DNA of 38,301 nt from Pseudobdellovibrionaceae bacterium (GTDB lineage Bacteria; Bdellovibrionota; Bdellovibrionia; Bdellovibrionales; Bdellovibrionaceae). A model generated the notes under the pieces. That model was not told the DNA's origin. It saw only the letters and a list, made by a program, of their open reading frames with translations, and searched no databases. Position numbers and translations under genes: made by a program. The stretch is from the NCBI GenBank assembly GCA_947449255.1, contig CANFQX010000022.1:1-38301 (forward strand), read 5' to 3'. Below, piece by piece: positions 853-5,309 of the stretch (its first letter is position 1; each line of letters starts with the position of its first letter).

Positions 853-1713
853 TTAATAGTAAACAAGATCGCGCTCGAAAAGAATTTTTCCGGTTGATGC
901 GCTGACTAGAAAATCTGAAGAATGCGCTCTTTGATCCTTGAACCATTGAGCATGGACAAGCCAAGATAATACACCTAAAGTTTCAGTCGTGTAAAACACC
1001 AGGGGGTTCGCATCAGCGGAGAGCTTAGTAGGAAGAGCCGGGGACATAATTTCTTTTAGAATGATGTCCTCTGCGGCATTGGCTGAGAACGTGATATCTT
1101 GATTCAGAGTCGCTACGGGCTTGAGTTCATTGTTAATGATGACAGGTGTGGATTCTTCAGGATGAGTGATGACTCGAACCCTACCGCCATAGACTGTGTA
1201 GCCATTAAAGGTCTGCTCGAGGTCATATTGATGAGGTATTTCATTTGCTTTCACTAAGGTGAGATTTGCATTTGGTGCTCCAAAAAGAGGTCTTAGTTTT
1301 TCTACAAAATCAGTGATATTTTGTTCATCCAAGACAGGACCTTCTGTGTTGCTAACTAAGATCGAGCGCACTTTAGTTTTACTGTTTTGATTGCTTGTGC
1401 TTGTGCTTGAGCTTGAGCTCCAGCCCATTCCAAAATCAGTGATGAGCTCTTCCATGCTGCTATAGAAAGCGCGTCCTGTAGGCGCTCCTTGAGGGATTCG
1501 AGCTGACTTGTATGCGGAAGCCGGGGCAATGGATATTTTATTTTTAGAATTTCCCTTTGCTTTGCTTTGATCGCCACCCTCATTCTTTAATTTGTCTGAG
1601 GATAAACTGAGCGAACCCTGAGTTGTCTGTTTTTGATTGATCGAAGAATTCAAATTCGCAAAGGCAATGAGAACTATGAGAGCTAGGAAACCAAAAAATA
1701 TTCTTTTTTTCAT
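853..1713 (-). CDS. Stand-alone FTP/PepSY-type metalloprotease propeptide protein
   Basis: The 286-residue protein has an N-terminal signal or anchor segment (about 4-20) and a low-complexity Lys/Ser/Gly linker with a Ser/Thr tract at 99-107. An FTP (fungalysin/thermolysin propeptide) region follows at about 125-205, recognisable from EQTFNGYTVYGGRVRVITH. A C-terminal PepSY-like part (about 206-286) ends in a pattern close to VSASTGKILF. In M4 and M36 proteases this module is the N-terminal intramolecular chaperone and inhibitor, but no catalytic domain follows here. The ATG directly abuts the TAA stop of the upstream metalloprotease gene, with zero bases between. The Shine-Dalgarno GAAGGGG lies inside that gene, so the two are almost certainly translationally coupled. 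I infer that it folds or inhibits the neighbouring protease in trans. The domain match is by eye and moderately sure. Confidence 0.72.
   Translation of the reverse strand: MKKRIFFGFLALIVLIAFANLNSSINQKQTTQGSLSLSSDKLKNEGGDQSKAKGNSKNKISIAPASAYKSARIPQGAPTGRAFYSSMEELITDFGMGWSSSSSTSTSNQNSKTKVRSILVSNTEGPVLDEQNITDFVEKLRPLFGAPNANLTLVKANEIPHQYDLEQTFNGYTVYGGRVRVITHPEESTPVIINNELKPVATLNQDITFSANAAEDIILKEIMSPALPTKLSADANPLVFYTTETLGVLSWLVHAQWFKDQRAHSSDFLVSASTGKILFERDLVYY
1393..1416. repeat. In-frame hexanucleotide repeat in propeptide gene
   Basis: Four consecutive hexamers GCTTGT, GCTTGT, GCTTGA, GCTTGA (plus strand) encode, on the minus strand, part of the Ser/Thr tract of the propeptide-like protein. Gain or loss of a unit would change the linker by two residues without a frameshift. 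Confidence 0.7.
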
Positions 1714-3153
1714 TTAAAAACCCCTTCGCGCGCATTCAGCTGTGAGAATAGCCGCAACCAAACCACCATCGGTAGAATTCGCCAGTGCGATTGATTTTTG
1801 GCAGGCTGATAAAAAGTCATCGTCACCAGTTAAGGCTGCCAAATGAGCTGAAAAAACTTTATCAATGGATCTAACACCGCGAGCTCCAATTTGGCTGTTG
1901 GCGGCTAATCGGGCTTCATACCAAATCGAACCCCAAATTCGACCAAGAATATGAATTTCACCATCGACCACCGTTCCTGCCGGTGAGCTGTAGACTTCTT
2001 GGGGTAAAAGGGCTCCTAGTTTAGAATAATTTCTGCGCAGTGTTCCTTCAAGAAATCCATCGACATTATTTACTAAAGACTCACCAATCGCTGTATTTTT
2101 TGGAAACATAATCAAAGCGTGATAGTCGGCAAGTCCTTCATTAATGGCTCGGAAACAGCCCTTATAAGTATCGCAGCACAAGCTTTTGCCAGAACTGCCA
2201 CACGCGATATTTTTAGTATGATCTTCAATGGCGTTGGCTGCAAAAAATACATTTCCATGACCGGCTTCGTGAAGGTAAACTTCCGCACTCAATGCCGTCT
2301 CTTGCAAGGCTCCGACAGGGTTTATATTCGTCTTAAAACCACCCATAAAAATAAGCCCAGAGCCCGTTGCAGTATCACCACTAAAGGCGGCATTGTTGTC
2401 ATAGGATGGTTTCGCAATGTAACTGAGGACTTCGATGTTTTTACCGGAACTGTACCAATGACCTGTCCAATTTAGCATAAAAGTCTTTTGAAAATTGAGA
2501 TAATGATGCGCCATCACGGCAGCTAATCTAAATGTGGTATCATTGCGATACGGCACTTTGAAATCCAGGCCAGGGAAGCAGGCATCATTAACGGTGACTG
2601 TCGTTGCAGTCCAGGTGATATCAGTCCTGATTCTATAAGTGGAATTCTTTAAGCAACCTGTAGCAACCTCATAGGAGGCAGGATCAAGGTTTACAGCAAA
2701 ATTTTGATAGCTGCTGAGGTCCATTGAGTTATTAGCAACCGTCGGAAAAAGGCTTCCCTTACTGGCCACTGGATTTTTAAAAAACAAACAAGCGTTGCTG
2801 CTTTTATCAGCGAAACAGTTTGTCGCTGTCGTTTGATTTGTTTGACCAAGAATCAATTGCGCATCCTGCTCCTTTTTTTTGCAGTCAGCGGCAGTGGTGC
2901 ATCCTAGTAAATTGCCATCAGTGGCTGGTGGATTTTGCGTGGGTGGAGGATTAGATGTGGGCGGAGTAACAGGCGGCACTGGTGGAGTCGTCGGATTAGT
3001 CGGAGTCACAACAGTTCCCGCGATTGTTGGATTAATAGTGTTGACCGAGTCAAATCCTTGGTTTGAGCAATTCTGAAAAAGAATCGTCATTGAAAAGAAG
3101 GCCAATGTTACCTTAGATATTTGCCCAAGCTTGTACCGATGGACAGAACTCAT
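1714..3153 (-). CDS. Secreted gluzincin metalloprotease lipoprotein (M36/M4-like)
   Basis: The protein has 479 residues. An N-terminal export segment ends in LFQNC with C29 as probable lipid-attachment Cys. The lipobox is non-canonical, but FQNC sites recur in Bdellovibrio-like lipoproteins. A Pro/Thr-rich linker spans about 45-80. The zinc motif HEAGH is at 295-299, and E339 in INEGLADY is the likely third ligand. H401 in EIHILGRIWGSIWYE matches the second active-site histidine segment of fungalysins (VHxxGxxW). The four Cys between motifs (318, 326, 327, 333) suggest disulfides outside the cytoplasm. No FTP propeptide precedes the catalytic part; it is encoded by the next gene downstream. 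The start is ATG at 3153 with AAGGGG 6 bases upstream. A surface or periplasmic protease is likely; the substrate is unknown. Assignment to M36 rather than M4 is tentative. Confidence 0.8.
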   Translation of the reverse strand: MSSVHRYKLGQISKVTLAFFSMTILFQNCSNQGFDSVNTINPTIAGTVVTPTNPTTPPVPPVTPPTSNPPPTQNPPATDGNLLGCTTAADCKKKEQDAQLILGQTNQTTATNCFADKSSNACLFFKNPVASKGSLFPTVANNSMDLSSYQNFAVNLDPASYEVATGCLKNSTYRIRTDITWTATTVTVNDACFPGLDFKVPYRNDTTFRLAAVMAHHYLNFQKTFMLNWTGHWYSSGKNIEVLSYIAKPSYDNNAAFSGDTATGSGLIFMGGFKTNINPVGALQETALSAEVYLHEAGHGNVFFAANAIEDHTKNIACGSSGKSLCCDTYKGCFRAINEGLADYHALIMFPKNTAIGESLVNNVDGFLEGTLRRNYSKLGALLPQEVYSSPAGTVVDGEIHILGRIWGSIWYEARLAANSQIGARGVRSIDKVFSAHLAALTGDDDFLSACQKSIALANSTDGGLVAAILTAECARRGF

Positions 3154-3396: not shown

Positions 3397-3648
3397 ATGA
3401 AAATATTTTATTTTTTCGCAATATTGATGATAAGTTCTGGTGTTTTTGCGCAAGATTCTACAAAAATCAACAAGCGCGTGGATCTTGAAGATGTAAAAAT
3501 CAAAGGGGAAGCCAATAAAGGAAACGTGAGCTTTTCAAATCGTTCCCGTCATAGTTTGAATGATCGAGTGAAATTGCGAAAAGATTTTAACAAGGAGATT
3601 CTTGAAAATCTGCCTGAAGAATTCAACTCGCAGAAGAAGGGTCAATGA
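3397..3648 (+). CDS. Small secreted protein of unknown function
   Basis: The 83-residue protein has a clean signal peptide (MKIFYFFAILMISSGVFA, cleavage expected before QDSTK). A short, highly charged mature part has about 65 residues with many Lys, Arg, Asp and Glu. It is not a family I recognise. The reading frame is open further upstream, to a TTG at 3295 and an ATG at 3358. ATG 3397 is preferred because it gives the textbook signal peptide, although no strong Shine-Dalgarno is present. Its 3' end overlaps by 26 bases the end of the convergent ExbD-like gene, last in the envelope-motor operon. It may be a periplasmic accessory of that system, but position is the only hint. Confidence 0.65.
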   Translation: MKIFYFFAILMISSGVFAQDSTKINKRVDLEDVKIKGEANKGNVSFSNRSRHSLNDRVKLRKDFNKEILENLPEEFNSQKKGQ

Positions 3649-4201
3649 TAAAGTTGATTCCCGTCCAGCCCTCATCAACCAGCACCCTCATCACTTTTTT
3701 GACTTCTTCGATAGGTGTTTTCTCATCAGCCTGCAAATTAACCTGACCTCGGAAATTTTTTTCTCCTCCAATTTGTCGTTCAATTTTACGCATGGCCTGA
3801 AGCATTTTTCTTAATTTGGGCAATTGGCCCTCGTTGATATCTTCGACATAAAGGGACTCGCCGCCATCAGCATTTTCAGCGTCAAACATCACTTTTTCTT
3901 TTACCACGGAAATCAAAGGGAATGACTGAAGCGGTTGTCCTTTTGAAGCTTTAGGAATGATGATATCTTTGGAAACGAAAAAAATTTCTCCCGTCGAAGA
4001 AAAATTCATAATTAGGTAGATCACAAGAATTGAAAACATATCCACCATGGGCGCCAAATTTAATGTAAAACTTTTTTTCTTTGCCTTGCGATGCCCAATG
4101 AGATGCCTGGTGTGAGCCATGTCAAACTGCGGATGAATGTGATTTCCTGGCACTTGCACCAGTCGATTCATGTTGCCTTTTACTTTTTCATTTTCTGACA
4201 T
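3623..4201 (-). CDS. ExbD/TolR-like motor subunit, extended N-terminus (AglS-type)
   Basis: Inner-membrane protein of 192 residues and last gene of the gliding-type envelope operon. ExbD/TolR proteins work with a TolQ/ExbB channel to harvest proton motive force. The single transmembrane helix (about 47-68) contains APMVDMFSILVIYLI, and D54 matches the essential proton-carrying Asp of TolR. A periplasmic domain of about 120 residues follows. The cytoplasmic tail before the helix is about 45 residues and rich in His and Lys, clearly longer than the 10-20 of standard ExbD/TolR, and may contact the FHA partner or the cytoplasm. The start is ATG 4201, five bases after the stop of the preceding ExbD-like gene. 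The pair of unequal ExbD-like proteins with one ExbB resembles Myxococcus AglR-AglQ-AglS. Confidence 0.85.
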   Translation of the reverse strand: MSENEKVKGNMNRLVQVPGNHIHPQFDMAHTRHLIGHRKAKKKSFTLNLAPMVDMFSILVIYLIMNFSSTGEIFFVSKDIIIPKASKGQPLQSFPLISVVKEKVMFDAENADGGESLYVEDINEGQLPKLRKMLQAMRKIERQIGGEKNFRGQVNLQADEKTPIEEVKKVMRVLVDEGWTGINFIIDPSSAS

Positions 4202-4206
4202 AATCT

Positions 4207-4659
4207 TCAGTTCGGATTGATTCCGACTTCTGGCCAGTCAGACTGGATCAAAAGATCGTACATTTTAATTAACTGCCCATAAGTGACCTGTGCCTCTGAA
4301 CTTAAAATAACATCCTTTTTCTCAGGAAATTTGTTTCGCCAGTCAGCTAATTTTATTCTCAGGGCTGTGACATCCCAAGACCCACTCACATTAGGAAATG
4401 ATGTTTCAACCTCATCTTCTAACAGAACAATTTTTACTGGATACATAAACACAGTCAACTTAGTCTTCTTTAAAGGTGGCTTGTCCGGCGGATTCAATGG
4501 ATCTGTTGCAGCTTCATTGGGAGCAGGAACTTTTTCAACTTGAACACTGACAGATTCGAGCTGTATCCATGCGGCCGTCATCAGCAGAAAGCAAATCAAC
4601 ACCGAAAATAAGTCGATAAAGGGAGTTAAATTAGGTTCGTTGCTGCCGCCCGCTGCCAC
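4207..4659 (-). CDS. ExbD/TolR-like motor subunit (AglQ-type)
   Basis: Second biopolymer-transport subunit, 150 residues. The short cytoplasmic tail leads into a transmembrane helix with LTPFIDLFSVLICFLL, where D16 is the predicted proton-carrying Asp. A Pro/Lys-rich linker and a periplasmic TolR-like domain follow. Its start is a GTG (4657-4659) that shares one base with the TAG stop of the ExbB-like gene (TAGTG), so translation is coupled and a fixed subunit ratio is expected. With the ExbB-like and the longer ExbD-like proteins it should form one channel. The specific AglQ label is an analogy from gene arrangement. Confidence 0.87.
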   Translation of the reverse strand: MAAGGSNEPNLTPFIDLFSVLICFLLMTAAWIQLESVSVQVEKVPAPNEAATDPLNPPDKPPLKKTKLTVFMYPVKIVLLEDEVETSFPNVSGSWDVTALRIKLADWRNKFPEKKDVILSSEAQVTYGQLIKMYDLLIQSDWPEVGINPN

Positions 4660-5309
4660 TATTTCTGCCTTTTTATTATTTTTTCTTTATTCACTAAAAT
4701 AAAATTTAAAGTCGCGACGCTGGCTTCATGAACATCATCAATAACTTTTGACGACCAAGAATTTAGCCAACCCCAACAAGTAAAAAGGACAATCGAAACC
4801 AACAGCCCAAAGCCAGTGGCATTGAGGGCCTCAGCAATCGAGGAGGCTAGGACTTTGGCCTTATCTGCCGGCGGCAAGTTGGCAACGGCTCCAAAGGCTG
4901 CAATCATTCCACTGACTGTTCCAAGCAGTCCAAGCAGAACCGCCACATTGGCCAAGGCAGATAATAAATCAATTCTCCTACCCAGGCGAGGTATTTCTCT
5001 TAGTGCCACCGCATCCATAGCCGTCTGAACTTCCTCTGGGCCATTTCCATTGGCAACAGAAACTAGGCCTGCCCTTACAATATTTGAGAGGGGGCCTTTA
5101 GACTGCGAAACAGCACTGATCGCCTTCTGCAATTCACCTTGAATGCAATAGGATTGGATAAAGTTGAGCAATTCATCTTTGTCAACTGCAGCAGCAGCTT
5201 TTAAAGTGATCGCGCGTTCAACAACAATGGCAACGCCAGCGGCAGAACAAGCTGCAATTGGAAACATGATATACCAGTGATCAAAAAAAATTGTACTAAA
5301 ACCCTTCAT
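4659..5309 (-). CDS. MotA/TolQ/ExbB-like proton channel protein (AglR-type)
   Basis: The 216-residue inner-membrane protein has three predicted helices (about 13-32, 117-141, 164-184), as in TolQ and ExbB. The hallmark segment LLGLLGTVSGMIAAF (126-139 region) lines the proton path, and SSIAEALNATGFGLLVSI is the second conserved block. It pairs with the two ExbD-like proteins that follow. Together they form a proton-driven stator powering work across the envelope through the upstream FHA/TonB-like protein. A gap of 27 bases separates it from that gene. In Myxococcus the equivalent AglRQS motor drives gliding. Tol-Pal or a nutrient-uptake ExbB is less likely because no TolA, TolB, Pal or TonB-dependent receptor is nearby. 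Confidence 0.9.
   Translation of the reverse strand: MKGFSTIFFDHWYIMFPIAACSAAGVAIVVERAITLKAAAAVDKDELLNFIQSYCIQGELQKAISAVSQSKGPLSNIVRAGLVSVANGNGPEEVQTAMDAVALREIPRLGRRIDLLSALANVAVLLGLLGTVSGMIAAFGAVANLPPADKAKVLASSIAEALNATGFGLLVSIVLFTCWGWLNSWSSKVIDDVHEASVATLNFILVNKEKIIKRQK

Follow-up and report, generated by a model that had tools for sequence, protein, structure and literature searches.

A metalloprotease and its propeptide homolog encoded by separate, adjoining genes in Bdellovibrionota

We find that a 38,301-nucleotide stretch of DNA from a Pseudobdellovibrionaceae bacterium (assembly GCA_947449255.1, contig CANFQX010000022.1; hereafter the window) carries, as two adjoining genes on the minus strand, homologs of the two parts that M36 fungalysin and M4 thermolysin zymogens join in one chain. 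The upstream gene, P1 (1714-3153, -; 479 amino acids), encodes a predicted lipoprotein with an M36/M4-like (gluzincin) metalloprotease domain, and the downstream gene, P2 (853-1713, -; 286 amino acids), encodes a separate FTP/PepSY propeptide protein with a predicted membrane anchor. Both open reading frames lie where the original prediction, made from the sequence alone, had placed them, and its central observation, that protease and propeptide are split between genes, is confirmed. We consider it probable that P1 and P2 together represent one thermolysin/fungalysin-type zymogen, split at its maturation site and reversed in order, with P2 acting in trans. The trans-acting reading offered in the original prediction is thereby largely supported, and its suggestion of a chaperone or inhibitor is well supported by inference. 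The pair arranges the M36/M4 zymogen in a new way; the open-access literature yielded no description of an M4 or M36 propeptide encoded by a gene of its own, subscription papers being outside the scope of the search.

Catalytic and propeptide halves

The catalytic assignment of P1 comes from structure and family comparisons. In its predicted structure (mean predicted local distance difference test score, pLDDT, 66.6; predicted template modelling score 0.72), residues 119-479 (1717-2799, -) form the catalytic domain, which aligns with residues 1-367 of mature M36 enzymes and matches them with Z 26.5 over about 300 residues, compared to Z of about 22 for M4 enzymes. The P1 family profile likewise ranked M36 structures first in the PDB (7qp3, E 2.4e-8) and M4 structures next (aureolysin, E 0.003), and Peptidase_M36 (PF02128) was matched by 10 of 27 P1 homologs (best E 2.5e-8). 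The M4/M36 profile check proposed in the original prediction thus succeeded for the family profile and these homologs and failed for the window protein, for which Pfam returned PF01447 at E 0.56, below the cut-off. The gluzincin site is as originally read: HEAGH at residues 295-299 (2257-2271, -) is the zinc-binding and catalytic motif, E339 in INEGLAD (2137-2139, -) the third zinc ligand, and H401 in GEIHILG (1951-1953, -) the equivalent of the M4/M36 catalytic histidine, all three sites being invariant in eight intact homologs. Judged by alignment and model, P1 is an M36/M4-type catalytic domain on a lipoprotein, with predicted proteolytic activity.

The claim that the protease lacks an FTP propeptide also stands. 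Neither the sequence nor the predicted fold upstream of residue 119 contains an N-terminal FTP/PepSY propeptide. The place expected for one is taken by a Thr/Pro-rich linker (2824-3066, -), and because residues 30-110 are a mostly low-confidence stretch of this linker in the predicted structure, P1 has no room for an internal propeptide. The linker follows Cys29 (3067-3069, -; FQNC-S), the putative lipid-attachment cysteine, which aligns with the canonical LxGC of other homologs. As the residue after this cysteine is never Asp in P1 or its homologs, lipid anchoring and, by the Escherichia coli rule, sorting to the outer membrane are predicted.

P2 begins with a hydrophobic segment (1651-1701, -), a putative inner-membrane signal anchor. 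Such a segment is present at the N-terminus of all P2 proteins; their membrane topology is predicted. In window P2, the segment leads into a stretch of about 80 residues that are largely disordered (residues 22-104; 1402-1650, -) and then into a fold that is well predicted (residues 105-286; 856-1401, -; ten-residue blocks mostly at pLDDT 72-96). The best structural match of the P2 model was the M36 propeptide 4k90_B (Z 11.7 over 157 residues), followed by the M4 propeptides 3nqz_A/3nqy_A (Z 10.3), YpeB (5boi, Z 10.2) and YycI (2o3o, Z 9.5). A family profile built from free-standing P2 genes only was also run against all PDB sequences. Only two entries matched at E <0.5, the MCP-02 M4 propeptide 3nqy_A with E 3.6e-4 and a precursor of thermolysin (5a3y) with E 6e-4; neither YpeB nor YycI structures were among the matches. 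The lipase foldase Lif was matched by window P2 neither in Pfam nor among the structure matches listed. Pfam FTP and PepSY were each matched by three of 14 P2 homologs (best E 0.059 and 0.0016, respectively). The FTP/PepSY features first noticed in this protein were therefore recovered at the level of the family profile and the predicted fold, not in a single-sequence Pfam scan. From profile and model together, P2 is a free-standing homolog of FTP/PepSY zymogen propeptides.

The end of P2 coincides with the point at which zymogens of both families are cut. Its last residue is aligned to position 245 of 4k90_B, the mature M36 chain beginning at 246, and to position 204 of 3nqy_A. The P2 profile stops at the final residue of this cleaved MCP-02 propeptide. 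Since the C-terminus of P2 aligns with the M36 and M4 maturation sites, the gene ends at the zymogen cut point. Single-chain relatives show how the two parts are joined elsewhere. In a phylum-wide search, the P2 profile matched the N-terminal 40-215 residues of ordinary proteins of 520-840 amino acids, and the P1 profile matched the C-terminal part of the same open reading frames. Some of these relatives score above the cut-off for Pfam FTP, and their N-termini match P2 in a profile-profile comparison with a probability of 98.5% (E 2.5e-15). On a quickly built tree for the catalytic regions, whose root is unknown, a single change suffices to relate the single-chain and two-chain forms.

At the junction of the two genes, the stop codon of P1 (TAA, 1716-1714) directly abuts the start codon of P2 (ATG, 1713-1711), with P1 before P2 and no base between them, exactly as originally described. 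A Shine-Dalgarno-like AAGGGG (1721-1726, -) lies 7 nucleotides before the P2 ATG, within the last codons of P1, and its position fits coupled translation of P2. Promoter and terminator scans performed no better than shuffled sequences.

Recurrence of the pair and its link to catalysis

Searches with the window proteins singly were uninformative: Pfam and NCBIfam yielded nothing useful for either, and phmmer against the PDB found no match for P1 or P2. Searches of the window's own genome with PF03413 and PF02128 found nothing. Because these last searches came back empty, family profile alignments were needed. An eight-row P1 alignment, used to scan the genome collection, found seven loci, and in all about 20 two-gene P1/P2 loci are present in Bdellovibrionota, bearing out the expectation that the pair would co-occur in related genomes. 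Most have P1 followed by P2 on one strand with a gap of at most 41 bp, often with zero gap or a 4-base overlap; the exceptions are a divergent pair (G043), a convergent pair (G108) and three family f11 loci in which P2 comes first. Independent homologs of both genes adjoin in these loci, so their adjacency is more than chance. The distances among P1 proteins correlate with those among P2 proteins (r 0.74, with none of 5000 permutations as high; r 0.62 in the core family).

Most related records bear the titles Bdellovibrio or Bdellovibrionales. Within the window's own genus, among the genomes listed, only the window genome has the pair, and its distribution is therefore patchy. One public record titled Streptomyces griseus (L189) groups with Bdellovibrionota and is probably a mislabelled metagenome bin. 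Variants were also seen. At L148 (6014-9526, -), a protein of 1170 amino acids has the P1 catalytic domain at its C-terminus after a large N-terminal extension, and its gene overlaps the downstream P2 gene by 4 bp. Three M36-like proteins (L172, L175 and L176) have an HExxH motif at around residue 200, and neither a propeptide nor a P2 partner was detectable for them; their partners may be more diverged.

The presence of P2 follows the catalytic integrity of P1. A separate P2 was found in every one of the 15 genomes that have an intact P1 (adjacent to it in 12; in the other three, at another place or at the edge of a contig), compared to none of the 13 genomes with only a catalytically dead P1, one of which is known from fragments only. 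The aligned dead homologs have all lost E296 and E339, and all but one have lost H401. Three genomes (G074, G075 and G088) have both intact and dead copies, and in these P2 lies beside the intact copies only. Fisher's exact test, counting 12 dead-only genomes, gives p 5.8e-8 for this association. The value makes the evidence look stronger than it is, since the dead copies group in a single clade (support 100/99) that arose from within the intact ones, and so represent one coupled loss.

We did not expect the arrangement in which the dead homologs occur. In 17 of 18 full-length dead-P1 loci (L048, L050, L051, L053, L058-L060, L062, L064, L065, L067, L068, L070-L073 and L076), the gene immediately upstream, on the same strand, encodes an S8 subtilase with intact His and Ser motifs, and its stop codon overlaps the start codon of dead P1; P2 is absent from these loci. 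Because of this overlapping gene, the dead P1 homologs can be said to have another coupled partner, and the pseudo-metalloprotease seems to have turned into the coupled partner of the subtilase.

Proposed mechanism and alternatives

We propose that P2, anchored in the membrane, most likely acts on P1 in trans as its steric chaperone and inhibitor, by analogy with the lipase foldase. P1, the catalytic half, would be exported as a lipoprotein. P2, the propeptide half, would be synthesized by coupled re-initiation straight after P1 and held at the inner membrane by its N-terminal anchor and flexible linker. In the periplasm, P2 would bind the emerging P1 through its FTP/PepSY fold and aid it in reaching the active fold, and the free C-terminal tail of P2 would be placed at the active-site cleft, keeping bound P1 inactive. 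Activity would begin when P1 leaves P2, for example during outer-membrane sorting, or when P2 is degraded, and intramolecular cleavage would not be needed. On balance, and with less assurance than for the split zymogen itself, we favor a broader picture in which this natural two-component zymogen, with its reusable membrane-anchored foldase and inhibitor, is ancient and widespread in Bdellovibrionota, and in which catalysis and foldase disappeared jointly from one branch, whose members came to serve a subtilase as its translationally coupled partner.

Several points weigh against the split zymogen with P2 acting in trans. Whereas the homologies, the order of the domains, the pairing of the genes, the sequence features of anchor and lipobox and the cut at the maturation site are shown here, binding, assisted folding, inhibition, release and localization are steps that we infer. 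The dead, P2-less state arose once, and the correlation between P2 and P1 integrity is thus a single evolutionary contrast; shared ancestry likewise contributes part of the correlation between P1 and P2 distances. Pairing is also imperfect: in G090, G040 and G031 the intact P1 has no P2 beside it, P2 being at another place or at the edge of a contig, and G001 has a P2-like gene but no two-chain P1. Finally, window P2 by itself has no match to Pfam FTP or PepSY.

The main rival is that P2 is solely an inhibitor or immunity protein. P1 would then fold alone, and P2 would cap its active site and shield the periplasm until P1 is released, comparable to SUB1-ProM or emfourin. Free-standing propeptide-like proteins can indeed be pure inhibitors, as SUB1-ProM illustrates (PMC6993865). 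The C-terminus of P2 lies at the cleavage site, where M4 and M36 propeptides end, and the absence of P2 from dead homologs is equally expected of an inhibitor. However, P1 has no other propeptide, whereas M4 and M36 enzymes use theirs for both folding and inhibition, and the anchor and linker of P2 resemble those of Lif, a foldase. We therefore regard a purely inhibitory P2 as unlikely, while giving it more weight than either of the explanations below.

The structural matches to YpeB and YycI raise a different interpretation, that P2 is a periplasmic PepSY regulator of their kind, sensing or stabilizing something else and merely co-expressed with the protease. The fold of P2 is near both, and orphan P2-like genes occur (G001:C3 and G090:C26). 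Such a role is nonetheless improbable, given that the sequence profiles match M4 propeptides but neither YpeB nor YycI, that P2 follows the catalytic integrity of P1, and that it ends at the zymogen cleavage site. The stop codon between the two parts could also be taken as a gene break or assembly artefact in an ordinary single-chain zymogen. We give this almost no credence. Compared with the single chain, the two genes stand in the opposite order, and both encode an export signal of their own. About 20 loci share the arrangement, some of them in divergent, convergent or P2-first form, and this recurrence excludes an artefact.

Comparison with known systems and neighboring genes

Zymogens of the M36 fungalysin and M4 thermolysin/vibriolysin types (4k90, 3nqy, 5a3y) resemble P1 in catalytic fold and motifs and P2 in the FTP/PepSY propeptide fold, and their maturation site corresponds to the end of P2. 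They differ in that their propeptide is N-terminal in the same chain, whereas here it is a separate anchored protein from a downstream gene and autocleavage would not be needed. Lif is encoded by a separate gene adjoining that of its enzyme and has an N-terminal anchor followed by a linker. P2 is similar to Lif in being a separate, predicted membrane-anchored periplasmic protein whose gene is linked to that of its enzyme, and the P1/P2 pair is similar in organization to Lif and lipase A of Burkholderia and Pseudomonas (PMC3352829). The enzymes and the chaperone folds are unrelated, however, and Lif is not a propeptide homolog.

Two further parallels appear distant. In the SleB-YpeB operon of Bacillus, a hydrolase is likewise encoded with a PepSY-domain partner whose fold is near that of P2, and YpeB both stabilizes SleB and, in vitro, inhibits it (PMC6660665). 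Rather than a metalloprotease, SleB is a cortex-lytic enzyme, and several PepSY domains are present in YpeB. Like P2, SUB1-ProM of Plasmodium is a free-standing propeptide-like protein; it is a potent inhibitor encoded beside protease genes (PMC6993865). It differs in having a subtilisin (S8) propeptide fold and in that its target protease retains its own propeptide.

If our interpretation is correct, P2 would be the propeptide counterpart of the lipase foldase, arrived at from an unrelated fold. Propeptides of thermolysin-like proteases have so far been studied as part of one chain, from which they must be removed. With a propeptide that naturally acts in trans, folding help and inhibition would be freed from the covalent link, and both would therefore be testable without artificial splitting. 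Neither window protein is recognized by standard family models, so the system has probably escaped annotation in this phylum, to which predatory bacteria belong.

ExbB/ExbD-like genes (3623-5309) lie near the pair in the window, a neighborhood that is not kept at other loci. An operon shared with these upstream genes was considered and rejected, since their position next to the pair is not conserved. The orphan P2-like gene of G001 (L150:6138-6908, -) has no two-chain protease near it and is adjoined by ExbB/ExbD/TonB-like genes.
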